Positions 15,195 to 29,092 of a stretch of DNA of 64,000 bases are shown in pieces. Within the stretch, counting starts at the first letter, position 1. Each line of letters opens with the position of its first letter. Under the pieces are notes generated by a model. That model saw only the letters and a list, made by a program, of their open reading frames with translations, had not been told where the DNA came from and searched no databases. The translations under genes and the position numbers were made by a program. The stretch lies in the NCBI GenBank assembly GCA_029260755.1, contig JAJDCQ010000024.1:17526-81525 (forward strand), given 5' to 3'. The DNA is from Planctomycetota bacterium. GTDB lineage: Bacteria > Planctomycetota > J058 > JAJDCQ01.

Positions 15195-16691
15195 TCAGCG
15201 GGCGTCGGTCCGGACGCGGGCCACGGCATCTCGCCAGCCATCATAGAGGCGGTCGCGCGTCGCCGCATCCGCCGCCGGCTCGAAGCGCCGGTCGGCGGGG
15301 CGATCGCCGGTGATCTCCTCGATCCCACCCCAGAAGCCCGAGCCGAGGCCGGCGAGCCAGGCGGCCCCCTGGGCGGTCGTCTCGATGTTCTTCGGCCGGA
15401 TGATCGGCATCCCGAGGATGTCGGCCTGGAACTGCATCAGGAGGTCGTTCTTCACCGCTCCGCCGTCGACGGCGAGCTCGTCGATGGCCATTCCGTCGGG
15501 GAGGTCGGTCCGGAAGACCTCGACGAGGTCGCGCACCTGGTAGGCGATCGACTCGAGCGCCGCCCGGACGATGTGGCCGCGCCCGGCCCCGCGGGTGAGA
15601 CCGACGATCGCCCCGCGCGCATTCATGTCCCAGTAGGGGGCGCCGAGGCCGACGAACGCCGGGACGAAGTAGACGCCGGCCGTGTCCTCGACGCTGCCGG
15701 CGAGCGCCTCGGTCTCGGCGGCGTCGTCGATGATGCCGAGCTCGTCGCGGAGCCACTGAACGACGGCGCCGGCGATGAAGACCGGCCCCTCGAGGGCGAA
15801 GACGGCCTCGCCCTTCGGCCCGCACGCGATCGTCGTCAGCAGCCCGTTCTCGGAGAGGGCGTGCTTCGAGCCGGTGTTGACCAGCGCGAAGCAGCCGGTC
15901 CCGTAGGTGTTCTTGACGCTGCCGGGCTCCACGCAGCCCTGCCCGAAGAGGGCCGCCTGCTGGTCGCCGGCCACGCCGGCGATCGGCACCTCGGCGCCGA
16001 GCGGCCCGTCGGCGACGGTCGTCCCGAAGAAGCCGGCGGACGGCCTCACCTCCGGCAGCATGGAGCGTGGCACGCCGAGGATCCCACCCAGCTCCTCGCT
16101 CCAGGCGCCCTCGCGGATGTCGTAGAGGAGCGTCCGCGAGGCGTTCGTCGGGTCGGTCGCGTGGACCGACCCGCCCGTCAGGCGGTGGATCAACCACGAG
16201 TCGATCGTCCCGAAGGCCGCGCGGCCGGCCTCGGCGGCCGCGTTCGCGGCGGGGACGTTCTCGAGGATCCAGGCGACCTTGGTGCCCGAGAAGTAGGCGT
16301 CGAGGACGAGGCCGGTCCGTTCGCGGAAGAGCTTCTCGTGGCCGGCGGCCTTGAGCTTCTCGCACGCGGACGCCGTCCGACGGCACTGCCAGACGATCGC
16401 GTTGGCGAGCGGGTCGCCGGTCTCGCGGTCCCAGACGACCGTCGTCTCACGCTGGTTGGTGATGCCGATAGCGGCGATCGCGTCGGCCGGCTCGCCCTCG
16501 CGGATCTCGCGGCAGAGCTTCGCGGTGACCTGCCAGATCTCCTCGGCGTCGTGCTCGACCCACCCCGGCTGCGGGTAGATCTGGCGGAACTCCGAGTAGA
16601 CCTTGCGGACGAGGTCGCCGTCCTTGCCGAAGAGGCCGACGGTCACGCCCGTCGTGCCGGCGTCGATCGAGAGGACGTAACGAGCGGCCAT
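15195..16691 (-). CDS. glpK: Glycerol kinase
   Basis: A 498-residue FGGY-family kinase, the normal length. The N-terminal phosphate-binding segment (LSIDAGTTGVTVGLF), the substrate segment WVEHDAEEIW, NQRETTVVWDRETG, and the ATP-domain motif (GTGCFALVNTG and DGGAVKNDLLMQFQADIL) are typical of GlpK. It phosphorylates glycerol to sn-glycerol-3-phosphate in the cytoplasm. The ATG at 16691 follows GGGAG. No glpF or glpD is nearby. It heads a unit with a thioredoxin-like and a secreted protein, so those may be passengers. Confidence 0.97.
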   Translation of the reverse strand: MAARYVLSIDAGTTGVTVGLFGKDGDLVRKVYSEFRQIYPQPGWVEHDAEEIWQVTAKLCREIREGEPADAIAAIGITNQRETTVVWDRETGDPLANAIVWQCRRTASACEKLKAAGHEKLFRERTGLVLDAYFSGTKVAWILENVPAANAAAEAGRAAFGTIDSWLIHRLTGGSVHATDPTNASRTLLYDIREGAWSEELGGILGVPRSMLPEVRPSAGFFGTTVADGPLGAEVPIAGVAGDQQAALFGQGCVEPGSVKNTYGTGCFALVNTGSKHALSENGLLTTIACGPKGEAVFALEGPVFIAGAVVQWLRDELGIIDDAAETEALAGSVEDTAGVYFVPAFVGLGAPYWDMNARGAIVGLTRGAGRGHIVRAALESIAYQVRDLVEVFRTDLPDGMAIDELAVDGGAVKNDLLMQFQADILGMPIIRPKNIETTAQGAAWLAGLGSGFWGGIEEITGDRPADRRFEPAADAATRDRLYDGWRDAVARVRTDAR

Positions 16692-17306: not shown

Positions 17307-18731
17307 TCAGCGATCGCGCCAGACGACGACGCTGCCGCTCATCATGTCGTGGAACGCGCGGCGCTGCGGGTGGAGCGCGATCGAGAGGAAGCCGATCCCG
17401 AGCGGCGCCGCGCTCACGACGTAGCAGACGCTCCGCCACAGCCCCGCGAGGAGGCCGATCCGGCGCCCGTCGAGGCGCCGGACCCGCAGCCCGACGAGGA
17501 GCTTCCCGGGCGTGAAGCCGAGGAGGCCGTTGCCGATGCTCGTCCAGAGGAAGCCGAGGCCGAGGGCGTCGACGAGGAGCAGCGCGCGGTCGAGCGGCAG
17601 CTCCCGTCCGAGGAGCCAGGCGAGGGCGCGGCCGGCGGCGAACCCTGGGGCGTGGTCCGAGAGGGGACCGGTGAGCGATCGGAGGACCATCAGGCCGAAG
17701 ACGAAGAGACACACATCGAGGAAGGTGGCGAAGCCACGCTCGAAGACACCCGCGACCGCGGGGCCTGCCTTCGGCCGCGCGATCTCGAGAGACGGAGCGC
17801 TCTCCCCCGCGGGACGGGTCGGGCTCGCCCTGGCCGCCGCGAGCTTCGCCGCCTCCCCGGCGACGGTCTTGGGGCGCGGGCGCTTCCTGGTGATCGCCTT
17901 CGTCACCCGCTTCACCGGCGCGAGGGCGACGTCGCGGACGGTCAGGAGGTCGGCCAGCGCCTCGTCCGCGCTGCCGTAGCGCCGCTGGAGGCGCGTGTAG
18001 CACTTGCGGAAGAGGTCGTCGATCCGGGTGTCGACGCCCGCGACGTGGTCGCCCGGCACCTCGCCGCCGACGGGCTGGGTGCCGGTGATCATCTCGAAGA
18101 GGACGATCCCGAAGGCGTAGAGGTCCGCCCGACCGTCGATCTTGCGGCCGACCTCGCGCTGCTCGGGCGCCATGTAGGCGAGCGTCCCGGCGATGCTCCC
18201 CTCGCGCGAGAGGTGGCTGAGCGACGCCTCGAGCGCCTCCTTCGTCGGCTCGGAGAGCTGCCCGAGGCCGAAGTCGGCGACCTTGACCGATCCGGTCGCC
18301 TTCTCGATGAGGACGTTCTCGGGCTTCACGTCGCGGTGGGTCACGCCGACGGCGTGGGCGGCGGCCAGCGCGCCGAGCACCTCGCAGCCGATCCGGACCG
18401 CCTCGTCGGGCGACAGCCGCTCCTCGCGACGGAGGCGGTCGCGGAGGGTCTCGCCGTCGATCAGCTCGACGGCCAGATACGGCGGGTCGTGGTCGGGGTC
18501 GAGGCCGATCGTCTGCACGATCCGGGCGTCGCCCTTGAGCTTGTCCTGGATGAGGCCCTCGCGCCGGAGCCGATCGCGCGAGCTCCCCTCGTGCGGGATC
18601 TTCACGGCGACGAGCCGGTCGGGGAGGACGTGATGGCGCGCCCGCCACACCTCACCGAAGCCGCCGCGGCCGATCCTCTCCTCGAGGATCCACTCGCCGA
18701 CCCGGTCGTTGGTGTCGAGCTCGAAGCTCAC
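17307..18731 (-). CDS. Ser/Thr protein kinase with C-terminal RDD membrane domain (2)
   Basis: A 474-residue protein. The kinase domain (about 14-285) has GRGGFGEV, the catalytic HRDVKPEN, DFGLGQ and APEQ. A basic, Pro-rich linker (about 285-330) precedes an RDD domain with three hydrophobic helices (about 345-465) ending RAFHDMMSGSVVVW. RDD domains are membrane modules that often end by a conserved HD. The start is GTG at 18731, preceded by GAGGTGA. It is the second of two adjacent RDD kinases (68-base gap) and downstream of the ESCRT-like genes, with which it is co-oriented. Phosphorylation of those proteins is an inference from position. Confidence 0.9.
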   Translation of the reverse strand: MSFELDTNDRVGEWILEERIGRGGFGEVWRARHHVLPDRLVAVKIPHEGSSRDRLRREGLIQDKLKGDARIVQTIGLDPDHDPPYLAVELIDGETLRDRLRREERLSPDEAVRIGCEVLGALAAAHAVGVTHRDVKPENVLIEKATGSVKVADFGLGQLSEPTKEALEASLSHLSREGSIAGTLAYMAPEQREVGRKIDGRADLYAFGIVLFEMITGTQPVGGEVPGDHVAGVDTRIDDLFRKCYTRLQRRYGSADEALADLLTVRDVALAPVKRVTKAITRKRPRPKTVAGEAAKLAAARASPTRPAGESAPSLEIARPKAGPAVAGVFERGFATFLDVCLFVFGLMVLRSLTGPLSDHAPGFAAGRALAWLLGRELPLDRALLLVDALGLGFLWTSIGNGLLGFTPGKLLVGLRVRRLDGRRIGLLAGLWRSVCYVVSAAPLGIGFLSIALHPQRRAFHDMMSGSVVVWRDR

Positions 18732-18799
18732 GCGGCCATCACCTCACCACCCCGTCACCCGGTCCGTAGGACTCCCGCGGTCCGGCCCGAGTTCCGTCA

Positions 18800-20221
18800 T
18801 CATCCATCGAGGTCGTCCTCGGCGAGCTCCTCGTCGGCGAGCTCGAGCGGCACGGAGGGCCCGTAGACCACGGCCGACCCGCAGACATGGTCGTGGAACG
18901 AGCGCTTCTCGCTGTCGATCGCCACGAGGGCGAAACCGGCGAACGCCGGGAGCGCCGAGAAGATCTTGAGGATCGTCCGGCCGACCGCCTGCATCGCGCC
19001 GATGCCCCGGCCGGTCCGATAGTCGACCACGCGCGCCCCGACGATCCAGCGCCCGATCGTCCGGCCGGAGACCGCCAGGAAGCTGACCTCGTAGAGGAAG
19101 AACAGGACCGGCCACCAGAGCGGGAAGACCCTGACCAGGTAGAACATCGCGTAGCCGAACACGATCAGGTCGAGCGACGTCGCGAGCAGCCGCGCGAAGA
19201 AGCCGGTCGGCGTCAGGCCCATCCGCTCGAGCGGGCGCCTGCGGACCGGCCGCGCCAGCGGTCGAACGCGCTCGCGGACCGCCGGCGGCGGCTCCTCGAC
19301 GACCGGCTCGGTCGCCTCGAGCGCGTCGAGGTCGCGCAGGACGTGCTTCACGTCGCCGTAGCGGGTCTCGAGGCGCGAGTAGCATCCGCGGAAGATCTTG
19401 TCGATCCGGGGATCGAGCCCGCCGCGCACCTCGCTCGGCACCTCGCCGCCCGCCGGCGTCTCGCCGGTCAGCATCTCGAAGAGGACGATCCCGAGGGCGT
19501 AGAGGTCGGTCCGGTGGTCGACGTCACGCGCCCGCTTGGGGTCCTGCTGCTCGGGCGACATGTAACGCAGCGTCCCGACGATGTCGGCGCCCTCGCGCGT
19601 CCGCAGACTCCCGCTCCGCATGAGCGAGGCGCTCTCGGCGTCGTAGATCTTGCCCAGGCCGAAGTCGGTCAGCCGGACCCGGCCCTCCTCGTCGAGGAGG
19701 ACGTTCTCGGGCTTGAGGTCGCGATGAACGATGCCCTTACCGTGCGCCTCGAAGAGCGCCTCGGCGATCTCGCGGCCGATCCGGAGCGCCTCGGCCTCGG
19801 CGAGGCGTCCCTCGCGCCGGATCCGTTCGCGGAGGCTCTCGCCCTCGACCCACTCCATGATCAGGTACGGCGGATCGTGCTCGGGGTCGAGGCCGACGGT
19901 CTGGACGATGTGGGGGCTGTCGACCGAGTGCTGGAGGATTCCTTCGCTCCGGAGCTTCGAGACGTACTCGCGGTCGAGCGGCACCTTCACCGCGACGAGT
20001 CGGTCCCGCCAGACGTGGTGGTGGCCGCGCCACACCTCGCCGAAGCCGCCGCGGCCGACGAGCTCGTCGAGGATGTACTCGCTCACCCGCTGGCCCGGCT
20101 CGAGGCCGGTGCCGCCCGCACTCCCGCTGGCGGTCCGCTCGCCCGAAGCGACGGGCGCCTCCGTGCCGGCGGGCTGCCAGCCGGTGTCGCGGGTCACCTC
20201 TCGATTGGCGTCGTTCACCAC
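18800..20221 (-). CDS. Ser/Thr protein kinase with C-terminal RDD membrane domain (1)
   Basis: A 473-residue protein. After a 45-residue Gly/Thr-rich N-tail, the kinase domain (about 47-315) shows GRGGFGEV, HRDLKPEN, DFGLGK and SPEQ. An RDD domain follows (about 345-455, ending SFHDHVCGSAVVY). The two RDD kinases share layout and differ in linker and N-tail, so they are old paralogs. The start is one of two adjacent GTG codons at 20221, with GCGAGGAG just upstream. It lies 64 bases after the four-helix membrane protein. The fold supports an active kinase; the target is unknown. Confidence 0.9.
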   Translation of the reverse strand: MVNDANREVTRDTGWQPAGTEAPVASGERTASGSAGGTGLEPGQRVSEYILDELVGRGGFGEVWRGHHHVWRDRLVAVKVPLDREYVSKLRSEGILQHSVDSPHIVQTVGLDPEHDPPYLIMEWVEGESLRERIRREGRLAEAEALRIGREIAEALFEAHGKGIVHRDLKPENVLLDEEGRVRLTDFGLGKIYDAESASLMRSGSLRTREGADIVGTLRYMSPEQQDPKRARDVDHRTDLYALGIVLFEMLTGETPAGGEVPSEVRGGLDPRIDKIFRGCYSRLETRYGDVKHVLRDLDALEATEPVVEEPPPAVRERVRPLARPVRRRPLERMGLTPTGFFARLLATSLDLIVFGYAMFYLVRVFPLWWPVLFFLYEVSFLAVSGRTIGRWIVGARVVDYRTGRGIGAMQAVGRTILKIFSALPAFAGFALVAIDSEKRSFHDHVCGSAVVYGPSVPLELADEELAEDDLDG

Positions 20222-20285
20222 GCGCTCCTCGCGTTTCCGGGCCGCCTCGATTCGGAGCGGGGCGCCCGGAAGTCAGACGCTCGCA

Positions 20286-21155
20286 CTAGACGAGCGTCGA
20301 GAAGAAGTTGAGCGCGTCGAAGTTCCAGAAGGCCGCCACCCCCGTGAGGATGAAGACCATGATCCAGAGGAACGCGCCCAGGTGGGCGAACCCAAGCAAG
20401 AGCCAGGCCGCGAAGAACGCGACGAGCGTCATGCTCGCGAGGAGGCTCAGATTGTAGGCGTTCTGACGCTTGCTCAGGACGGCCTTCGCGACGCCCGAGG
20501 CATAAGCGATGAACGGGAGCGACCCCGCGATGATCAGCCACAGGATCAGCCGGAGGATGAAGTGGATCTTGCGGACGTTGTTCCCGGTCTTGAGGTAGAA
20601 CCCGGGCTCGCCCTTGTAGACGTAGGGCGTGCCCACGAGCTGGCCGTTCGCGACCTGGAAGAGGTTCGCGCGAAGCTCGATCGCGGGCGGAGTGCCGGAG
20701 CCGCCGTCGGTGAACTTGATCATCTCGAGGAACAGGATCCCGTGGATGTCCATGTTCTTCTCGCGGTTGAGCCACATCGCGGCCTGGCGCGCCGTCCCGA
20801 CGCTGCCGGGCGTGTCGCCGAACTGCTTGGTGAAGTCCTCACCCGCCCGGTCGCCGGCGTCGTCCCAGGTGTAGACGGCGAACTTGCTCGCCCCGCTGAC
20901 GTGGTCGGCCACCATGTTGTTGAGCCGGTAACCCTCGTCGGTCGCGCCGACGTCGGACGCGATCAGCACCTTGTTGATGTCGCGGTGCCGGGGGAGGTTC
21001 TTGGCGAGGTCCTCCGAGGCGTCGAGCGCCATGTAGTGCATGATGAAGTTCAGGTCGCGCTTGAACTCGAGCGACCCGATCACGAAGTAGAGACCGGTCA
21101 GCAGGATGATGCTCAGGAAGATGATCAAGAGCACCTTGAGGATGACGTTCAGCAT
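20286..21155 (-). CDS. Multi-pass membrane protein of the ESCRT-like locus
   Basis: A 289-residue protein. One transmembrane helix at the N-terminus (about 4-27, LLIIFLSIILLTGLYFVIGS) is followed by a soluble domain of about 170 residues and then three C-terminal helices (about 196-285). The soluble part contains many charged residues and no recognised motif. It starts 46 bases after the SPFH gene and is followed at 64 bases by an RDD kinase. Its ATG at 21155 follows GGAG. A membrane recruitment or anchoring role for the soluble members of the locus is a reasonable guess, but nothing in the sequence proves it. Confidence 0.8.
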   Translation of the reverse strand: MLNVILKVLLIIFLSIILLTGLYFVIGSLEFKRDLNFIMHYMALDASEDLAKNLPRHRDINKVLIASDVGATDEGYRLNNMVADHVSGASKFAVYTWDDAGDRAGEDFTKQFGDTPGSVGTARQAAMWLNREKNMDIHGILFLEMIKFTDGGSGTPPAIELRANLFQVANGQLVGTPYVYKGEPGFYLKTGNNVRKIHFILRLILWLIIAGSLPFIAYASGVAKAVLSKRQNAYNLSLLASMTLVAFFAAWLLLGFAHLGAFLWIMVFILTGVAAFWNFDALNFFSTLV

Positions 21156-21201
21156 CGCTTAGCTCCGCGGCCTCCGAAGGCTCGCTTCCTTCGGGACTCG
21201 C

Positions 21202-23124
21202 TCACGCCTCGGCCCGCCGCTCGCGGCAGACCCAGACGTCCTGGATCTTGTCGGCGACCCGGATCGTGAGGGTCGGCTCGGCCGGCCGCTTCGGGTGCCA
21301 GACGAAGATCTTGTAGCCGGCGCGGCTCACGCCGAAGATGTAGTCGCTCGCCGCGTCCACCCAGCGGACCTCCTCGCGAGCCCGATACTCCTTGAACTTG
21401 TCCTTGCCGACCGTCGCGACGGTCACGCTGAAGTCCTTGCTCCCCACGACGAGGTGGTTCTCGCCGCCGGCCTCGAACAGCCGGAGCATGTAGATCGGGT
21501 TCGCCTTCCGCACCGGGAGCTCGTTCGGGCTTCGGGGGTCGTCGAGGTTCCACCGCAGGATCGTGCCGTACTTGTTGCCGGCGTAGAGCCCGCTTCGTCC
21601 GACGCAGAACGCGGTGATCGATTCGGTCGAGCCGCTGTAGCAGGTGAGCTCCGTTTTCCCGCGGACGAGATCGGCCGCGTAGATGTTCGGCCCGCTGCTG
21701 AAGTAGAGCTTTCCGTCGCTGCCGAGGCAGGCGCCGCGCGTCGCCGAGTGCTTCCCGGTGACGTCGTCCCAGCGGGTCTGGCTCCGGACGACGCCCTTCA
21801 CGTCCCAGGCGACGATCCCGAGCTCGGAGTGGCTGGCGTAGACCCGGTCGTCGAACGTGCAGATCGAGTTCGCCCCGCCGTGGCCGTCGGGCGCCTTCGG
21901 GAACGCGAACTCCTTCGGGTCGTGCCCCTCCTCGATCCAGTAGACGCCCCGCTGGGCGCCGGCGAGGATCACCTCCTGCCCGCGGAGGCGCTGGAACCGC
22001 ACGCTCCGGAGGTAGCCGAGGGTGCCGCCCTCGGTGTCGTGGACCTCCTTGGCGACCTCGGGGTTGAGGTTCGTCTTCGGGTCGAAGGCGAGGATCTTCT
22101 TGCCGACGACGGCGAGGAGGCGCCGCGTCTGCGGCCCGCGCTCCTGCGCGTCGGCGAGCTCCACCCCGCTCAGCTCGGCGAGCTTGCTCTGCATCTCGCG
22201 GAGCTGCTGGGTGAGCTTCTCCTCGACCTCGCGCGCCTTGAGGGCCGCCTTCTCGTCGTCGGGCAGGTCGCGCTCGATGAGCTTCTTGACGAGGTCGGCG
22301 CGGAGGTCGTCGTCGTCGAGGAGAAAGACGAGCGCCTTCGTCTCGTCCGCCCCCATCTTCCCCTGGAGCTCCTCCCAGCGCTTGAGCTGCTGGTCGTGGC
22401 GCTTGTCGTCGATCTCGCCGCGGAGCTCGAGCTCCTTGATCAGGCCCTCGGCCTCGAGGCGCTTGTTCAGCTCCTCGAGCCGCTGCTCCTGCTCGCGCTC
22501 CTCGGCCTTGATCCGCGCCTCGACCTCGTTGCGCTTGAGCTCGTCGTAGGCTTCGGACTCGAACCGCGGATGGAGCGTCTCGCGGAGCGCGATCCCGCCG
22601 TCGAACAGCGGCCGTTTCATCTCCTCGGCGAAGAGGTCGGCGAGCGCGTCGCGGACGTCGGTCTCGCAGAGGTCGTGGGCCGTCCGGGCGAGGACGAACG
22701 CCTTCAGGGCATCGCGGACGTAGGGGAGGAGGTAGCCCTCGAAGTCGCTCCGGGAGTAGTCCTCCCGGTCGCCGAGGAGGTTCTTCTCGAACGACTCGAG
22801 GTCGAACACCTCGGCCCGGAACGCGAACGAGAGCCTGACCGAGGCCTCCACCTCGAGCTTGTCGGAGCTGCCGAGCCCCTCGATCCGGAAGTCGATCGCG
22901 AACGGGTCCGCCTTCGCCAGGACACCCTTGAGGTCGCTCGCGCTCTGCTGAGCGGCGCCCTTGATGACGACGGCGTCGGCGCCGCCCTTCCGGACCAGCG
23001 CGACCGCACCTTCGGGGATGGTCAGGGTGCGCGAGAGCAGCCCGGGCAGCCGGTCATCGGCGACCCGGGCGGCGAGCACACCCTCGTGCGTCATGAACTC
23101 ACTGACGTCGAGCTTCGTCGCCAT
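21202..23124 (-). CDS. SPFH/band-7-like protein with coiled coil and beta-propeller
   Basis: A 640-residue protein in three parts. Residues 25-200 look like an SPFH (stomatin/prohibitin/flotillin) domain, with TIPEGAVALVRKGGADAVV at the start, then alternating strands and a helix. Residues 200-330 are a long charged coiled coil (ELKRNEVEARIKAEEREQEQ). Residues 335-635 form short repeated beta blades (for example ITAFCVGRSGLYAGNKYGTI), consistent with a beta-propeller. There is no signal peptide or transmembrane helix. SPFH proteins oligomerise at membranes and can recruit ESCRT-III-superfamily PspA in Bacillus. The gene lies 136 bases after the MIT-AAA ATPase gene. Its ATG at 23124 follows GGGAAG. 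The SPFH assignment is moderate, the propeller weaker. Confidence 0.75.
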   Translation of the reverse strand: MATKLDVSEFMTHEGVLAARVADDRLPGLLSRTLTIPEGAVALVRKGGADAVVIKGAAQQSASDLKGVLAKADPFAIDFRIEGLGSSDKLEVEASVRLSFAFRAEVFDLESFEKNLLGDREDYSRSDFEGYLLPYVRDALKAFVLARTAHDLCETDVRDALADLFAEEMKRPLFDGGIALRETLHPRFESEAYDELKRNEVEARIKAEEREQEQRLEELNKRLEAEGLIKELELRGEIDDKRHDQQLKRWEELQGKMGADETKALVFLLDDDDLRADLVKKLIERDLPDDEKAALKAREVEEKLTQQLREMQSKLAELSGVELADAQERGPQTRRLLAVVGKKILAFDPKTNLNPEVAKEVHDTEGGTLGYLRSVRFQRLRGQEVILAGAQRGVYWIEEGHDPKEFAFPKAPDGHGGANSICTFDDRVYASHSELGIVAWDVKGVVRSQTRWDDVTGKHSATRGACLGSDGKLYFSSGPNIYAADLVRGKTELTCYSGSTESITAFCVGRSGLYAGNKYGTILRWNLDDPRSPNELPVRKANPIYMLRLFEAGGENHLVVGSKDFSVTVATVGKDKFKEYRAREEVRWVDAASDYIFGVSRAGYKIFVWHPKRPAEPTLTIRVADKIQDVWVCRERRAEA

Positions 23125-23260
23125 CCGCTTCTTCCCTCTGGGCTTGGGGCTCTGCCCGGCCCGGTTTCCGGCACCCTCGCTCTCGGAGTCCGAGGGTCCC
23201 GCCGTTGTCTTGGACGCTCACCGCGCGGCGGATGCGTCGATCTTCCCGGTCAGGCGACGC

Positions 23261-24424
23261 TCACTCCCCGCGGGCGAACCGCTCGAAGGGCTCGAGCTGA
23301 TTCGGCCGCACCGTCGGGACGCTCTCGGCGACGATCGCGTCGAAGTCGGCCGCGGTGATCGGTCCCGAGCCGCCGCCGGCCACGATCCGGCGGAAGGCCT
23401 TCTGCGCTGCGTTCTCGCAGATCTCCTTGAGGTCGGCGCCGGAGTAGCCATCGAGCCGGTCGGCGAGCTCGCCGACATCGACGTCGGCGGCGAGCGGACG
23501 GTCGACGAGGTTGAGCTCGAGGATCTTCTTCCGGGCGGGTCGGTCGGGGAGCGAGACGTAGACCCGCTCGTCGAAGCGTCCGGGCCGCATGATCGCCGGA
23601 TCGAGCTGCCACGGCTTGTTCGTCGCGCCGAGGAAGAGGACCGGGTTCTTCTCGTGGCTGTCGAAGCCGTCGAGCTCGGCGAGGATCTGCGGGACGACCC
23701 GCTGCATCACCGCGCTCCCCTGATCGGTCCGGGCCGGCGCGAGCGCCTCGACCTCGTCGAAGAAGATGATCGACCGCTCGTTCGTCCGGGCGACGGCGAA
23801 GAGGCGCGCTATGTTCTTCTCCGCCTCGCCGACGAGCGTCTCCATGATGTCGGCGGGCTTGACGTTGAAGAACGCCGCCTCGATCTCGCCGGCGACCGCC
23901 TTCGCGAGCATCGTCTTGCCGGTGCCGGGCGGGCCGAACAGGAGCACGCCGCCGCCCTGCTTGATCTTGAACTTCTCCGCCGCCTCGGGGTGGGTGAACG
24001 GGTAGATCATCTTGATGCGGATCTCGTCCTTCACCTTCTCGAGACCCGCGATGTCGTCGAACTTGATGTTCGGCGTGCCGACCGCCTGGAAGCGCTCGGC
24101 GCCCTCGGCCGCCCGCCCCTCGAGGTCGACGGCGTTGCCGTCCTTGTCGACGGCGCCGGGCGTGCCGAGCTTCGGCTTCTTCGGGCTGCGAGGTCCCGCG
24201 TCGGGGTCGATCCCCTTCGCCTTCTCGAGCAGCTTCCGAGCCTGCTCGGAGCGCTTCTTGGCGAGCTGGCCGTCGCTGCCCTGGGCGAGCTTGAAGAGGA
24301 ACTCCGCCGCCTTGAGGAGGCTGAAGCGTGCCTCCTTCATCTCCCCATCGCGGTACGCAGCGAGGCCTTTCTCCTGGTACTCCTTGAAGGACCTCATGTA
24401 GAAGTCCATGCCGCTCAGCGCCAT
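23261..24424 (-). CDS. Vps4-like AAA ATPase with N-terminal MIT-like domain (1)
   Basis: A 387-residue protein. Residues 5-72 form three predicted helices (MDFYMRSFKEYQEKG, EMKEARFSLLKAAEFLF, KKRSEQARKLLEKAKGI) with the spacing and Ala/Leu pattern of an MIT domain, the module by which Vps4/CdvC binds ESCRT-III tails. A 45-residue linker leads to one AAA domain: Walker A GPPGTGKT (164-171), pore-loop segment ETLVGEAEK, Walker B IIFFDE (219-224), sensor ATN (269) and RPGRF (280-284). One AAA ring with MIT is the Vps4 architecture. It should disassemble Snf7-type filaments. Start: ATG at 24424, chosen over GTG at 24430 because GCGAGG stands eight bases before it. Confidence 0.85.
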   Translation of the reverse strand: MALSGMDFYMRSFKEYQEKGLAAYRDGEMKEARFSLLKAAEFLFKLAQGSDGQLAKKRSEQARKLLEKAKGIDPDAGPRSPKKPKLGTPGAVDKDGNAVDLEGRAAEGAERFQAVGTPNIKFDDIAGLEKVKDEIRIKMIYPFTHPEAAEKFKIKQGGGVLLFGPPGTGKTMLAKAVAGEIEAAFFNVKPADIMETLVGEAEKNIARLFAVARTNERSIIFFDEVEALAPARTDQGSAVMQRVVPQILAELDGFDSHEKNPVLFLGATNKPWQLDPAIMRPGRFDERVYVSLPDRPARKKILELNLVDRPLAADVDVGELADRLDGYSGADLKEICENAAQKAFRRIVAGGGSGPITAADFDAIVAESVPTVRPNQLEPFERFARGE

Positions 24425-24470
24425 GGGCACACCTCGCTCGCAACGAAGACGGCGTGGGGGCGGGGGACGA

Positions 24471-25076
24471 TCAAGCCTTGCCGAGCTCCCGCTCGATCTC
24501 GTCGAGGCCGGCGTCGATCTGCGCGTCGGCCTCCTCGAACGCCTTGGCCTCCTCCTGGACGACCTCCTCCTCGATGAGCTTGTCGATCTCGGCGTCGCTG
24601 ACGAGCTCGTCGGCGTTCATCGCGTCCATGTTCATCATCGAGTCGGTCGACTGCTCGAGCATCATCTCCATCGCCTGACTCATGTTCTCCGCCTTCCCGA
24701 TGGCAGACTCGCAGTTCTTCTGGATCTCGGCGAGATTGACCGAGCCGTACGCGTCGCTGATCGCCATCGCGACCGTCGAGACCGCGCCCGCGAAGTTCGC
24801 GTGAGCCTCGGCCTGGTCCTTGAGCTGGTTGAAGGTCTCGATGTTGAGGATCTGGCGCTCCATCATCCGGCGCTGGAAGGCGGTCCGCTTCAGGTTCGCC
24901 TTGATGAAGTTGAGCTGATACTTGTCGCCGAGCCCCTTGGCGCGCTTGGCCTTCTTGATCAGCTCCTTCTCATCCTTCTCGAGCTGGCGGATGTGGCGCT
25001 TGGCATTGCTGATGCCGCGCCGGATCTCCATCTCGCGCTCGAGCTTCCGCTCTTCCTTGCTCTTGAACAGCCCCAT
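24471..25076 (-). CDS. ESCRT-III (Snf7)-like protein (3)
   Basis: A 201-residue all-helical protein. It begins MGLFKSKEERK, then a basic helical hairpin (residues 10-85, including ANLKRTAFQRRMMERQILNI), a middle helix (95-140) and an acidic C-terminal half (about 38 Asp/Glu in the last 100 residues, few basics). This polarity, size and order match ESCRT-III subunits such as CHMP2 and CHMP4. The last residues (GLDEIERELGKA) resemble an MIM1 motif that MIT domains bind. It lies between the two MIT-AAA genes, 15 and 40-46 bases from them, with ATG at 25076 after GAGGG. It should polymerise on membranes. PspA/Vipp1 is the nearest known bacterial relative, but those lack this tail and partner. Confidence 0.8.
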   Translation of the reverse strand: MGLFKSKEERKLEREMEIRRGISNAKRHIRQLEKDEKELIKKAKRAKGLGDKYQLNFIKANLKRTAFQRRMMERQILNIETFNQLKDQAEAHANFAGAVSTVAMAISDAYGSVNLAEIQKNCESAIGKAENMSQAMEMMLEQSTDSMMNMDAMNADELVSDAEIDKLIEEEVVQEEAKAFEEADAQIDAGLDEIERELGKA

Positions 25077-25091
25077 CGTCTCGCCCTCGCG

Positions 25092-26399
25092 TCAGTCCTC
25101 GGTGCTCTCGGCCCAGTCCACGTACCGCTTCATGTCCTCGGGGCTGGTCACCGGGTGAATGCCGACCCGCGCCTCCTCGAAGTCCACGAGGCGGAGCGGC
25201 CGGACCTTGATCTCGTAGCTCTGCACCTTCTCGAGGCCCGAGTCGACGAGCCCCGGCAGGTCCAGGTTGCACTCGGCCACCATCCGGTTGGTGACCTCCT
25301 TGCAGAAGCGGTCGATCTCGCGACCGCTGTAACCGTCGGTCATGTCGACGAGCTCGTCGAGCTCGCACTCGATGTCGAACCCCTTCTTCCCGAGCAGGAT
25401 GTCGAGGATCGCCCGGCGGGTGACCGGGTCGGGGAGCGGGATCAGGATCTTCTTGTCGAACCGGCTCAACACGGCCGCATCGAGATCCCACGGACGGTTG
25501 GTCGCGGCGATCGTCAGGACGTAGACGTCCTTGCGCCCCTTCTCGGCCAGGCCGTCGAGCTCGCTCAGGATCGTCGAGAGGATCCGGCGCTCGGTGCCGC
25601 TGTCACCGTCGTCCCGACTGCCGCAGATGCTCTCGAACTCGTCGAGGAAGATGACCGCCGGGCTCGCGTCGCGCGCGGTGCCGTAGAGCTCGCTGATGAT
25701 CTTGGTCGACTCGCCGAAGTACTTCGACATCACCGAGCTGACCTTGCAGTTGAAGAAGACGGCCCGCTGGCCGCCGTCGTGGAGCTTGAGGGCGTTGCTC
25801 GTCGCCGCGGCGAGGAGCGTCTTGCCGGTGCCGGGCGGCCCGTAGAACAGCATGTTCCGCCAGGTCTGGAGGTCGACGCCTTCGGGCTTCTTGGCGATCG
25901 AGACGGCGAGGGCGTACTTGATCTCCTCCTTCGTCGCCTCGAGGCCGCCGATGTCCTGCCAGGTCAGAGAGCTCGCGTGGATCAGCTCGTTGACGACCTT
26001 GTTGATCTCGCCCTTCTCCTCCTCGCCCTCGCGCGCCTTGCCGCTGCTGCCCCGGCCGCCGCCGCGGCGCGGCGGGGAGCCCGACGACGAGGACGACGAG
26101 GAGGAAGCGGACGAGGAGGTCGAGCTCGTCGAGGACGACGAGCTCTTCTTCTCCTCGGGGGCCGGCACCTCGCCGTCGCGGAGACGGCGGGCGAACTCGC
26201 GGTACTTGAGCGCCTTCTTCTTGAACTCGGCCTCGTCCTGGCGGCGCTGGCTCCGCTGGCTCAGCCGAAGGGCGACGTCGTAGGCCTTCTCGTAATAGGT
26301 GGCCGCGGTCTCGTCCTCACCCGCCTGGTAGGCTTCGTCCGCGCGAGACACCGTCTTCGCGAGCGTTCTCCGCATCTCGATGGTGAGGTCGATCGCCAT
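25092..26399 (-). CDS. Vps4-like AAA ATPase with N-terminal MIT-like domain (2)
   Basis: A 435-residue protein. Residues 5-75 form three predicted helices of MIT type (TLAKTVSRADEAYQAG, DETAATYYEKAYDVAL, EFKKKALKYREFARRL). A Ser/Gly/Arg-rich low-complexity linker (85-128) leads to one AAA domain: GPPGTGKT (187-194), pore-loop segment SKYFGEST (225-232), Walker B VIFLDE (249-254), sensor AATNRPWDLD, and a C-terminal helical lid. The pore loop has an aromatic pair where Vps4 has W or similar. It differs from the other MIT-AAA of the locus in linker, pore loop and lid, so the pair diverged long ago. The ATG at 26399 follows GAGGTGAAA. Confidence 0.85.
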   Translation of the reverse strand: MAIDLTIEMRRTLAKTVSRADEAYQAGEDETAATYYEKAYDVALRLSQRSQRRQDEAEFKKKALKYREFARRLRDGEVPAPEEKKSSSSSTSSTSSSASSSSSSSSGSPPRRGGGRGSSGKAREGEEEKGEINKVVNELIHASSLTWQDIGGLEATKEEIKYALAVSIAKKPEGVDLQTWRNMLFYGPPGTGKTLLAAATSNALKLHDGGQRAVFFNCKVSSVMSKYFGESTKIISELYGTARDASPAVIFLDEFESICGSRDDGDSGTERRILSTILSELDGLAEKGRKDVYVLTIAATNRPWDLDAAVLSRFDKKILIPLPDPVTRRAILDILLGKKGFDIECELDELVDMTDGYSGREIDRFCKEVTNRMVAECNLDLPGLVDSGLEKVQSYEIKVRPLRLVDFEEARVGIHPVTSPEDMKRYVDWAESTED

Positions 26400-26431
26400 A
26401 CGCTTTCACCTCGTGGGCGTGGCCGGGACGA

Positions 26432-27064
26432 CTAGACGTCCTCGGTCTCGCCCGGCTCCTCGATCTTCTTCTTGAGCTCCTCTTCCCGCTCGATCGCGAC
26501 GTCGAGGTCCCCCTGCTCCTCGGCCGAGATGATCGCGTCGAGGTCCTTCAGGAAGGCCTCCTTGTTGGGATCCTCGTCGGTGAAGGCTTCCATCTCCTCG
26601 ACCTCGATCCCGATCTCCTCCATGTGGGAGTTCAGCATGTCGAGGTACGCCGTCTCGTCGATCTCGCCGGCGCGGAGCTTCTCGTCGAGCCCCGAGGTCC
26701 GGACCCGCTCCATCAGCCCGCGGATCTTGCCCTTGTCGCTCGTCTTCTCGAGCCGCTCGAGACCGCGGATGTAGCGGTTGAGCCCGATCGCCTCGAGGTT
26801 GAGCACCTTGGCATCGCGCCGGACCATCGCCTGCTCGTACTGGATGCCCTTGATCTCGTCGTAGTAGAGGTCGGTGTCGGCGTGGTTGCCTTCCTTCCGC
26901 GCCTTCTTGAGCTTCTTGAGCGACTCGTCGCTCCGGATGCCGAGCTTCCGGAGCTCGAGCGTCGACCGCTTGCGGTCGCGCTTCACGCCCAGCAGCGCGA
27001 CCTTGAGGTCGCGCGAGGTGATTTCCTTGTCCTTCTGTCCGAACAGTTTCTCGAAAAGTGCCAC
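26432..27064 (-). CDS. ESCRT-III (Snf7)-like protein (2)
   Basis: A 210-residue helical protein. Its start MALFEKLFGQ is like the amphipathic N-terminus of CHMP4 (MSVFGKLFGA). A basic region (about 20-100, with KRDRKRSTLELRKLG and LKKLKKARKEGNH) is followed by helices LNRYIRGLERLEKTSDKG and GLMERVRTSGLDEKL and then an acidic tail ending IEEPGETEDV. The polarity is that of ESCRT-III. The GTG start at 27064 is only three bases after the stop of the upstream Snf7-like gene, and its GGAGTGA ribosome site lies in that gene, so the two are coupled. It is distinct in sequence from the other two. Confidence 0.75.
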   Translation of the reverse strand: MALFEKLFGQKDKEITSRDLKVALLGVKRDRKRSTLELRKLGIRSDESLKKLKKARKEGNHADTDLYYDEIKGIQYEQAMVRRDAKVLNLEAIGLNRYIRGLERLEKTSDKGKIRGLMERVRTSGLDEKLRAGEIDETAYLDMLNSHMEEIGIEVEEMEAFTDEDPNKEAFLKDLDAIISAEEQGDLDVAIEREEELKKKIEEPGETEDV

Positions 27065-27067
27065 GGG

Positions 27068-27931
27068 TCACTCCGTCTCCAGGCGCTTCTCTTCGCGCTC
27101 GGTCTCGGGCTCCTTCTCCTCCGCCGGCTTCATCGTTGCGGTATCGGTCGCCAGGACCTCCTCCATCGACGGGCGGCGGATCTTGATCGGAGCCTTCTCG
27201 GCCTTCTCCTCGTCCTTCTTCTCCTCCTCGAGGGCTGCGGCTTCCTCCTCGAGGACCTTGTCTTCGGTCTTCTTCGCGGCCTCGGCGGCCTTCTCGAAGT
27301 CGGCCTCGGCGGACTCCGTCTCGGCCTTCTCGGCCTCCTGAGCCGCGGCCTCGGAGCCCTCGCGCTCGGCGAAGTCCTTCTTGAGCTCGGCCTCGAGGGC
27401 GGCGAGCTCGCGGTCGAGGCGCACGTTCTCGGTGATCCCCTCGACCTCGCCCGACAGGGCTTGCTCGGCCTCGACGTAGCGCTCGTGGCGCTCCTTCACG
27501 TCGCCGTACTTCACGGCGAGGTCGTCGATCTCCTCGACCTGGAGCACATTGCCGTGCTCCATGAGGGCCATCTCCTGGATCCGGTTCAGGATCCCGAGGT
27601 TGCTCTCGATCTTCTGCTGGAGGATCGTGCTCTGGCGCTCGTAGCTCGCGATCCGCTTCCGGAGCTGGAGCACCTTCTTGAGCGAGAGCTCCTTCTCGCG
27701 CCCGCTGACCAGCCCCTTGGCGACCTTCTCCTGATGCTGGAGCTCGTCACGGCCGAGCGTCTCGATCTCGCGATCGACCCGCTCCTCCTTGATCACCTGG
27801 AGCTCGACCACGGCGAGGTCGAGCTTGTCGCGCAGCTCCTCGAGGGACTCGGCCTCCTCGATGGCCTTGCGCGCCTCCTCGGTGATGCTGCGGCGCATGA
27901 ACAGGGTTTTTACGCGTTCGAAAAGCGACAT
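27068..27931 (-). CDS. ESCRT-III (Snf7)/PspA-like protein (1)
   Basis: A 287-residue helical protein with an amphipathic N-terminus (MSLFERVKTLFMRR), long alternating charged helices (about 20-190, including KVLQLRKRIASYERQSTILQ), then a Glu/Ala/Lys-rich low-complexity tail with a Pro segment (APIKIRRPSMEEVL). The length and coiled hairpin resemble both Snf7 and PspA/Vipp1 proteins. It is the longest of the three. The ATG at 27931 is preferred to a GTG at 27964 because the amphipathic helix begins there. It opens the Snf7-AAA part of the locus, about 100 bases after the winged-helix-like gene, and is directly coupled to the next gene. Confidence 0.7.
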   Translation of the reverse strand: MSLFERVKTLFMRRSITEEARKAIEEAESLEELRDKLDLAVVELQVIKEERVDREIETLGRDELQHQEKVAKGLVSGREKELSLKKVLQLRKRIASYERQSTILQQKIESNLGILNRIQEMALMEHGNVLQVEEIDDLAVKYGDVKERHERYVEAEQALSGEVEGITENVRLDRELAALEAELKKDFAEREGSEAAAQEAEKAETESAEADFEKAAEAAKKTEDKVLEEEAAALEEEKKDEEKAEKAPIKIRRPSMEEVLATDTATMKPAEEKEPETEREEKRLETE

Positions 27932-28030
27932 GCTGCTCTTCTTCGTTCCGGTCTCTGCGATCACGTGTCCGTCCTCGCGCTCACTGCCGCGCCCCGGCCG
28001 GCGCCGGCGCGCAGCATGCGCACGGACGGG

Positions 28031-28876
28031 TCAGAAGCGCTTCCGCCTGATGATTTCCTCTCCGCCCGCCTGGATGAGCTCGAGATCCGAGTCGACGCTC
28101 GTGATCTCGTCGATCGCCCGCTGGAGCATGCCCTCGTCCACGCCGAGGTCCTCCCGCAGACGACGCATGACCAGGAACCCGCCTCGCGGCCGAAGCTTCG
28201 GGTTGTCCTTGATGAACTGGCAGACGCGGGACAGCTTCTCCTCCTTCGATTCCGGATCGAAGAAGTCGTCCGCGTCTTCCCACGAAGGCCCGATCGCGCC
28301 GAGCTTCCGCCACGCCGTTCCGCCGACGTTCTCGACGAGGCAGACGGCCAGGTTGCTCTGGCTGGGCACGTGGGAGACGGCGTCGGCGGTCCACCCCGGC
28401 GTGGCCAGGACGCCGACGAAGTACATCACGTCGTCCTTCAAGACGAGCTCGTCGAGGGCGCGCTCGAGGTCGCCGGGCCCGAGGGCCCGCTTCGACTCGC
28501 GGCTCTTGATCAGATCCTCGAGAGGAGAGACCGACATCGCCCGGAAGACGACCCTCGGCTCGCGCCGCAGGAAGAACGATCGGGTGAAGACCTCGATCTC
28601 GACGGACCGGTCGAGGGGGAGGACGTCGAGCAGGCTGCGCTCGAAGATCCTGGCCTTCTTCATGAGATTGATCACGGAGCTCGCGCGGTCCCGCCGGACG
28701 ACGGTCCGCTCGCGCGGGCTCGCCGCGAACGAGCGCCCGTGGTAGGGGCTCCAGACGCTGCGAACGTCGTCGAACCGGGCCGTGAACCGCTCGAGGAAGG
28801 TCTCCTCGAGCGCCCGGGCGCGCTCGGCGCTCGTGACGCCGTCTCGCTCCTTGACCGCCGCCTCGCGTGTACTCAC
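28031..28876 (-). CDS. Protein of unknown function with a winged-helix-like C-terminus
   Basis: A 281-residue soluble protein. The N-terminal 200 residues are mixed alpha/beta, with charged helices early (AERARALEETFLERFTARF) and a hydrophobic strand pair later (DDVMYFVGVLATPGW). The last 75 residues (LSRVCQFIKDNPKL, GGFLVMRRLREDLG, GMLQRAIDEITSVD, then a charged beta hairpin) have the helix-helix-helix-wing order of a winged helix. It is the first gene behind the 29.06 kb promoter of the ESCRT-like locus and about 100 bases ahead of the first Snf7-like gene. It could be a regulator, or an adaptor like winged-helix ESCRT-II proteins. Both are speculation. The GTG at 28876 is the first start; an AGGAT lies upstream. 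Confidence 0.65.
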   Translation of the reverse strand: MSTREAAVKERDGVTSAERARALEETFLERFTARFDDVRSVWSPYHGRSFAASPRERTVVRRDRASSVINLMKKARIFERSLLDVLPLDRSVEIEVFTRSFFLRREPRVVFRAMSVSPLEDLIKSRESKRALGPGDLERALDELVLKDDVMYFVGVLATPGWTADAVSHVPSQSNLAVCLVENVGGTAWRKLGAIGPSWEDADDFFDPESKEEKLSRVCQFIKDNPKLRPRGGFLVMRRLREDLGVDEGMLQRAIDEITSVDSDLELIQAGGEEIIRRKRF

Positions 28877-29063
28877 CGCGACATCCTGCTCCTCGCAGAG
28901 GTCCGTCGTCTTCTACCAACCTGCCGTCAGGAAGGTTACGGAGATCGACGCTCGCGACGATCCCTCCCGGGCGCCCCGCCTCGCCCGCGCTCGACGCGAT
29001 CGGCGTGATCCACCGACCCGGGGGTCGGCCCGCCACGCTCGGCGTGGGCTCCAGAGCGCCTCT

Positions 29064-29092
29064 CTTATAGCAGTCTCCTCTCATTGGGTCAA
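29064..29092 (-). promoter_or_regulatory. Sigma-70-type promoter of the ESCRT-like locus
   Basis: On the minus strand TTGACC (29087-29092) and TATAAG (29064-29069) are separated by 17 bases. Transcription would begin near 29057 and leave a leader of about 180 bases before the first start codon, containing the small palindrome CCGACCC-CC-GGGTCGG. This is the best promoter-like site seen upstream of the 17-29 kb run. Confidence 0.7.

Follow-up and report, generated by a model that had tools for sequence, protein, structure and literature searches.

A predicted ESCRT-type membrane-remodelling gene cluster in planctomycete bacteria

MIT domains and C-terminal tails act together in ESCRT-III function, with Vps4 rings threading subunits, and Psp proteins control a response to membrane stress. 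The bacterial proteins PspA and Vipp1 are hairpin proteins of the ESCRT-III superfamily, and we know of no Vps4 dedicated to them. In the TACK Cdv system (CdvA, CdvB and CdvC), an ESCRT-III filament protein is found together with Vps4/CdvC. Passages of a 2024 survey (PMC10936438) describe systems with both ESCRT-III and Vps4 as 'confined to archaea and eukaryotes'. The archaeal loci that these passages name 'Main' and 'Meth_adaptin' hold a Vps4 with an MIT-like domain, adjacent ESCRT-III genes and often Ser/Thr kinases, together with an SPFH protein with a coiled coil in the case of Meth_adaptin, and SPFH partners are mentioned there for some bacterial PspA loci. Here we describe a cluster of ten genes in contig JAJDCQ010000024.1 of a Planctomycetota bacterium which, as predicted from its proteins and their conservation, very probably encodes a planctomycete machine for membrane remodelling of the ESCRT type. 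The sequence analysed, called the window below, is a stretch of 64,000 nucleotides within this 81.5 kb contig, which belongs to a draft genome of 12.26 Mb in 276 contigs. The genes are termed p1, p2, p3, AAA1, p5, AAA2, p7, p8, p9 and p10 in the order of transcription (Table 1).

AAA1, a Vps4-family gene, adjoins the Snf7 gene p5, so that Vps4 and ESCRT-III genes are both present, which is how an ESCRT system is worded in the survey (PMC10936438). A preliminary description of the locus had proposed that it combines the two components in a bacterium, and this is borne out by the Pfam and PDB matches of p5, by the position of AAA1 in a tree of AAA domains, by its CdvC and Vps4_C matches and by the gene order. 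The archaeal ESCRT loci resemble the cluster in the parts listed above, with p7 comparable to the Meth_adaptin SPFH protein. The cluster differs in being bacterial, in having SPFH fused to a beta-propeller rather than to zinc ribbons, and in its second AAA gene, its RDD kinases and its MerR-bearing p1 relatives. Compared with Cdv, whose CdvC is the best model for AAA1 albeit under its cut-off, the planctomycete cluster has more partners and shows no sign of replacing FtsZ. Unlike PspA and Vipp1, p5 matches Snf7 and not PspA, and a PspA homologue is encoded at another place in the genome. Cdc48/p97 and the proteasomal ATPases share the AAA domain with both ATPases of the cluster, and AAA2 scores highest with the CDC48 model, but AAA1 and AAA2 have a single AAA domain and their own N-domain, and they fall into separate clades.

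The ESCRT-III component is represented by p5. The Pfam family Snf7 (PF03357) matches the window protein alone with an E-value of 3.9e-4 and 20.7 bits against a curated cut-off of 27.3. When the search was run by genome, the match in its own genome had an E-value of 9.6e-4, and among 14 control genomes a match was obtained in Sulfolobus only, likewise under the cut-off. An alignment of 30 sequences was assembled from 24 homologues (276 were found), five loci and the window protein; 28 of these members match PF03357 at E-values of 0.1 or below (best 6.5e-8), and precomputed PF03357 annotation is carried by 19 of the 120 p5 homologues among the matches listed. The family profile retrieved six PDB sequences at E-values up to 1, all of them CHMP proteins, with CHMP3 best at 2.1e-4. 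Together, the PF03357 matches across the family and these six matches to ESCRT-III sequences assign p5, by sequence, to the Snf7 (ESCRT-III) family. PspA was not among the Pfam matches of p5 or of its family. Near the C-terminus of p5 lies a conserved acidic stretch, VSDxEIDxLI.

The second component is AAA1, whose architecture comprises an MIT-like N-domain (approximately residues 1-77), a Ser-rich linker, the AAA domain and a Vps4_C-like end. Its best NCBIfam model is CdvC with 170 bits (cut-off 650), followed by CDC48 with 160 and the proteasomal AAA model with 155, all far under their cut-offs; in AAA2 the order is reversed, with CDC48 (241 bits) above CdvC (204 bits). In a phmmer search, residues 17-368 of AAA1 were aligned to VPS4B in one stretch. 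Vps4_C (PF09336) was found in six of 11 AAA1 family members at E-values of 0.01 or below, one of the six being archaeal. The window AAA1 itself scores 19.9 bits against a cut-off of 21.3, and the match in AAA2 is very weak (E-value 0.046). The AAA tree was built from 88 hand-picked rows of 133 non-redundant domains (145 of the 147 domains found covered at least 190 profile positions), with the AAA1 set thinned of near-duplicates, the Cdc48 set reduced by about half and some of the other archaeal AAA domains omitted. In this tree the 30 AAA1 rows lie on one side of a branch (support 85/96) and join three archaeal Vps4 rows with a support of 84/89; the AAA2 proteins, with 22 rows, constitute a clade of their own (100/98), apart from AAA1 and archaeal Vps4. 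These comparisons place AAA1 in the Vps4 family, nearer to Vps4 than to Cdc48 or the proteasomal AAA proteins, and identify AAA2 as a separate AAA clade that does not group with Vps4. The two Vps4-like ATPases with MIT-like N-domains that had been proposed for the locus are thus reduced to one, since AAA1 retains both attributes in qualified form and AAA2 belongs to a distinct clade.

The N-domain of AAA1 is likely to be an MIT domain. Its profile, compared with the PDB, matches VPS4 MIT over positions 6-75 with E-values of 0.0025 and 0.0032, and eight VPS4 MIT sequences (E-values from 0.0025 to 0.6) align along nearly the whole domain. The match is weak, and the assignment is likely rather than certain because TPR competes with MIT in both the PDB and the Pfam matches. 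In three relatives an extra gene lies between p3 and AAA1 (L004:8866-9957, L005:8751-9935 and L007:8853-10004). Its product shows a weak match to the AAA1 profile (E-values from 1e-7 to 6e-9) and is perhaps an additional MIT-like protein.

Three Snf7-like proteins had been suggested at the outset. Beside p5, which is supported by sequence, p3 retains this description through its predicted fold. The p3 alignment was made from 37 sequences out of 118 homologues found. The structure model (predicted local distance difference test score, pLDDT, 77) opens with a short helix, which is followed by a long hairpin (16-56 and 60-106) and by shorter helices, and ends in a confidently predicted C-terminal helical hairpin. 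When the model was compared with the PDB by Foldseek, members of the ESCRT-III superfamily occupied 21 of the first 22 rows, headed by Asgard ESCRT-IIIB, Vipp1, CdvB and CHMP1B, and p3 is therefore predicted to resemble ESCRT-III. The third protein, p2, did not hold up to the same degree. In its model (pLDDT 81) a helix at the N-terminus is joined by a long hairpin, and Vipp1 appears in six of the first ten Foldseek rows with a best E-value of 0.013, but the list is mixed lower down, and p2 is a possible ESCRT-III relative. For the p2 alignments, the protein was taken to begin at an alternative ATG at 27931. The C-terminal end reads LExE in 12 of the 29 rows of the p2 family, which resembles a short binding motif for an MIT domain.

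Counterparts were found in archaea. Two archaeal loci retrieved with AAA1 are Methanomicrobiales records. In locus L012, two small genes lie directly upstream of a Vps4 that passes the Vps4_C cut-off, and a kinase-like gene lies on the opposite strand. In a third archaeon (L129), the genes divergent from Vps4 include relatives of these small genes, with 49% and 30% identity, and encode in addition a zinc-ribbon SPFH protein and a kinase that carries an NHL propeller and TPR. Archaeal ESCRT-III genes are mostly upstream of Vps4 according to passages of the survey (PMC10936438), and the small genes are therefore taken for ESCRT-III genes, by their place only. When the p7 family is compared with the L129 SPFH protein, its SPFH head matches with 49.6 bits over 179 positions. 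As a control, 12 other SPFH genes (11 from the window genome and one from the L129 archaeon) reach at most 14.0 bits. On these scores the p7 head is specifically related to the SPFH protein of the archaeal Vps4 locus, so that Vps4, a special SPFH protein and a kinase are common to the archaeal and the bacterial locus. Directly downstream of Vps4 in L012 there is also a TIR protein (L012:11028-11792), the N-terminal part of which matches the AAA1 profile and is MIT-like.

This TIR protein is one of the observations that would suit a different explanation, in which the ATPases would serve, with coiled-coil adaptors, as the unfoldases of a complex for signalling or defence, and the resemblance to ESCRT would reflect helical shape alone. 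The kinases within the cluster would fit such a complex, helical folds such as those modelled for p3 and p2 match many things, and the NCBIfam model of the anti-phage ATPase IteA scores 106 and 117 bits. However, these IteA scores are far under those of CdvC and CDC48, AAA1 groups with Vps4 in the tree, Snf7 is found in 28 of the 30 p5 family members, and the PDB matches of the p5 profile are to ESCRT-III chains alone, which together leave the defence explanation with only a slight chance of being correct.

All ten genes lie on the minus strand between 17307 and 28876, with p1 at the upper and p10 at the lower end; from p1 to p10 they are separated by 66, 3, 32, 15, 46, 136, 46, 64 and 68 bases. 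The co-orientation and the gaps of 3-136 bases noted at the outset are confirmed by the coordinates of the open reading frames. The third-position GC content is 0.92-0.97 in the nine of the ten frames that were scored; the true frame of AAA2 (23261-24424) is outside these nine. The end of the locus had initially been put at 29092, which is beyond any gene, since an in-frame stop upstream of 28876 sets the start of p1 at this position. A glycerol-kinase-like gene lies near the cluster both in the window (15195-16691) and in a relative (L011:11913-13343), the two being 66% identical.

Table 1. Genes of the cluster, with their occurrence near p5 in 55 Snf7 loci, and the separate PspA/IM30 homologue of the same genome with its SPFH neighbour.
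Feature	Position	Strand	Length (amino acids)	Description	Loci (of 55)
p1	28031-28876	-	281	First gene; conserved body, basic C-terminal end	40
p2	27068-27964	-	298	N-terminal helix and long hairpin in the model, acidic tail	40
p3	26432-27064	-	210	Predicted ESCRT-III-like fold	38
AAA1	25092-26399	-	435	Vps4-family AAA ATPase (by sequence)	38
p5	24471-25076	-	201	Snf7 (ESCRT-III) family protein (by sequence)	
AAA2	23261-24424	-	387	Second single-domain AAA ATPase, own clade	24
p7	21202-23124	-	640	SPFH (Band_7) domain, coiled coil and beta-propeller	23
p8	20286-21155	-	289	Membrane protein, three hydrophobic segments	11
p9	18800-20221	-	473	Ser/Thr kinase with RDD membrane domain	
p10	17307-18731	-	474	Ser/Thr kinase with RDD membrane domain	
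PspA/IM30 homologue	G000:C190:12724-13137			Assigned by Pfam	
SPFH gene	G000:C190:14540-14992	Same as PspA/IM30 homologue		About 1.4 kb from the PspA/IM30 homologue	

The cluster is not peculiar to one genome. In a sample of 392 Planctomycetota genomes drawn evenly over the phylum (267 genera), p5 was found in 55 genomes, its own included, with one copy in each, and in 38 genera. Neighbours were counted within 12 kb of p5 in all 55 p5 loci, with six loci coming from a direct search with AAA1. The neighbours p1, p2, p3, AAA1, AAA2, SPFH and p8 occur at the frequencies given in Table 1 and invariably lie on the strand of p5; a match to p9 or p10 is present in 16 of the loci, on the same strand in 14. 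At least one of the two ATPases accompanies p5 in 46 loci, both in 16, AAA1 alone in 22 and AAA2 alone in eight. Snf7 with AAA2 and without AAA1 was seen, in the stretch read, in L048, L050, L062, L072, L073, L079, L080 and L135, some of which are at the end of a contig. The common gene order is p1-p2-p3-AAA1-Snf7, followed by AAA2-SPFH-p8-kinase where these are present. Ten planctomycete loci were retrieved directly with AAA1, eight of them also found in the genome survey; the order p3-AAA1-Snf7 is kept in these eight, and the other two have AAA1 without the rest. The same gene order is thus seen in related genomes, as had been asked of the locus when it was first described, and this conservation excludes chance as the reason for the arrangement. 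It also bears on the idea that an archaeal or eukaryotic contig was binned into the planctomycete genome by mistake. The draft state of the assembly, with its 276 contigs, would allow for such an error, but the cluster sits on an 81.5 kb contig and recurs in 55 of the 392 genomes as well as in nine Planctomycetota records, which makes an assembly artefact a negligible prospect.

The remaining genes encode a putative regulator and membrane and kinase partners. The body of p1 is conserved across the family alignment. Searches of the PDB and Pfam gave no winged helix in p1, so the winged-helix-like protein originally proposed was not recovered. The search of p1 covered 58 loci, with a few contigs represented twice. 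In 11 of them, namely L002, L011, L044, L045, L049, L050, L056, L058, L060, L061 and L062, a conserved N-terminal domain precedes the p1 body. This domain is MerR, above the PF13411 cut-off, in three of three proteins scanned. The window p1 is without it, and no significant piece of the domain was found elsewhere in the window. As relatives carry a MerR domain and a winged helix was not found, p1 is more likely to be a regulator or sensor than a part of ESCRT-II. The other partners agree with what had been expected. Band_7 (PF01145) is found in seven of 13 p7 family members (best E-value 1.8e-5) and PQQ_2 in four of the 13 (best 0.0063), both at E-values of 0.1 or below, and the p7 profile matches beta-propellers in the PDB, both designed and WD40. 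The window p7 alone gave no Pfam match to Band_7 or to a propeller, and it is through the Band_7 matches of its relatives that p7 is assigned to the SPFH family. The multi-pass character of p8 is supported by its hydrophobic segments, and p9 and p10 both pass the Pfam cut-offs for Pkinase and RDD.

The presence of a putative regulator beside an SPFH protein raises the question of a Psp-like response to membrane stress. In such a membrane-repair system, equipped with a dedicated disassembly ATPase, the SPFH protein would sense damage, the filaments would cover it and p1 would control transcription. This alternative shares its parts with an ESCRT-type remodelling machine and differs in their use. 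The 11 p1 relatives with the N-terminal domain favour it, as do the SPFH partners of bacterial PspA loci noted in passages of the survey (PMC10936438) and the first place of Vipp1 in the Foldseek list of p2. However, p5 matches Snf7 and not PspA in Pfam, and the genome has a separate PspA/IM30 homologue on another contig, above the Pfam cut-off and with an SPFH gene approximately 1.4 kb away (Table 1), so that a Psp-like use of the cluster seems rather unlikely.

A role in cell division has also to be considered. In a Cdv-like cytokinesis machine of FtsZ-less Planctomycetota, the filaments would constrict the division site or bud neck and the ATPases would drive abscission. Matches to FtsZ (PF00091) are absent from all 55 genomes that carry p5, and CdvB and CdvC participate in archaeal division according to passages of the survey (PMC10936438). 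However, FtsZ matches are found in only seven of the 392 genomes overall, and FtsZ is likewise missing from 330 of the 337 genomes that lack p5, so that the locus does not follow the loss of FtsZ and is not a general replacement for it. Moreover, the SPFH, kinase and propeller partners would rather suggest sorting or stress systems, and a cytokinesis machine is accordingly regarded as improbable.

Several results weigh against the reading of the cluster as an ESCRT-type machine. The window proteins taken individually are under the curated cut-offs of Snf7, MIT, Vps4_C and CdvC. For AAA1, two-domain p97 chains outrank VPS4B by summing two domains, and the branch that joins AAA1 to Vps4 (84/89) is not strong in a tree built without eukaryotic, TACK or Asgard Vps4. 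In its N-domain, designed TPR repeats match a piece of approximately 27 residues, repeatedly so in the long designs, and some of them outscore MIT, and in Pfam TPR_2 is found in three of ten family members compared with two of ten for MIT. The Foldseek matches of p3 have E-values of 0.055 or worse and low TM-scores, and Z fails to discriminate for p3 and for p2. Profile comparison relates p5 to p3 weakly (probability 23%) and shows no relation of p2 to either p5 or p3. For the small archaeal genes, Pfam gave no match to any ESCRT family. Finally, p5 is found in only 14 of the 217 genomes with a completeness of 90% or more and a contamination of 5% or less, and is therefore a minority trait, and neither AAA1 nor AAA2 was scored in nine of the 55 loci. 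Of these nine, five are on contigs shorter than 7.1 kb, three (L078, L082 and L134) have less than 2.6 kb upstream, and the last, L132, went unscored as its Snf7 frame carried another label.

From the family memberships and the co-conservation of the genes we infer a role of the ESCRT-type cluster in membrane remodelling. Its use would most likely be the bending and cutting of membranes (invagination and internal vesicles) or membrane repair. In decreasing order of confidence, p5 with p3, and perhaps p2, would co-polymerise at the cytoplasmic membrane, on its inner face; AAA1 would use its MIT-like domain to grip the acidic C-terminal stretches of p5, p3 and p2, and the ring would thread subunits out of the filaments. 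AAA2 might do likewise for another subunit, or replace AAA1 where AAA1 is missing. The SPFH-coiled-coil-propeller protein p7 and the membrane protein p8 may define the patch of membrane and keep it in place, the RDD kinases p9 and p10, anchored in the membrane, may switch assembly on or off, and p1, last in this order, might pass the state of the system to transcription.

A literature search found no bacterial case of ESCRT-III with Vps4, within a reach that excluded preprints and many journals. As passages of the survey (PMC10936438) limit such systems to archaea and eukaryotes, and as no bacterial case was found, we call the locus a new bacterial version of ESCRT, and it is likely that the planctomycetes with the cluster carry their own version of the machine. 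Planctomycetota are noted for their internal membranes in passages of an earlier paper (PMC6524685). A fuller proposal, which we put forward tentatively and with some doubt, is that of a true ESCRT machine in this phylum, built of composite filaments, two ATPases and an SPFH-propeller scaffold and controlled by kinases. It would sort and cut membrane inside the cell, its core would be shared between the domains of life through either an old transfer or common descent, and those internal membranes may depend on it. A bacterial ESCRT branch would extend the machine to the third domain and supply a new outgroup for its evolution, and where ESCRT-III and Vps4 occur together is relevant to how membrane traffic in eukaryotes arose; if the proposal is true, the core ESCRT machine is not solely an archaeal-eukaryotic invention. 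For the Planctomycetes, which are mostly without FtsZ, the cluster would name genes with which it could be tested how these bacteria bend and cut their membranes.

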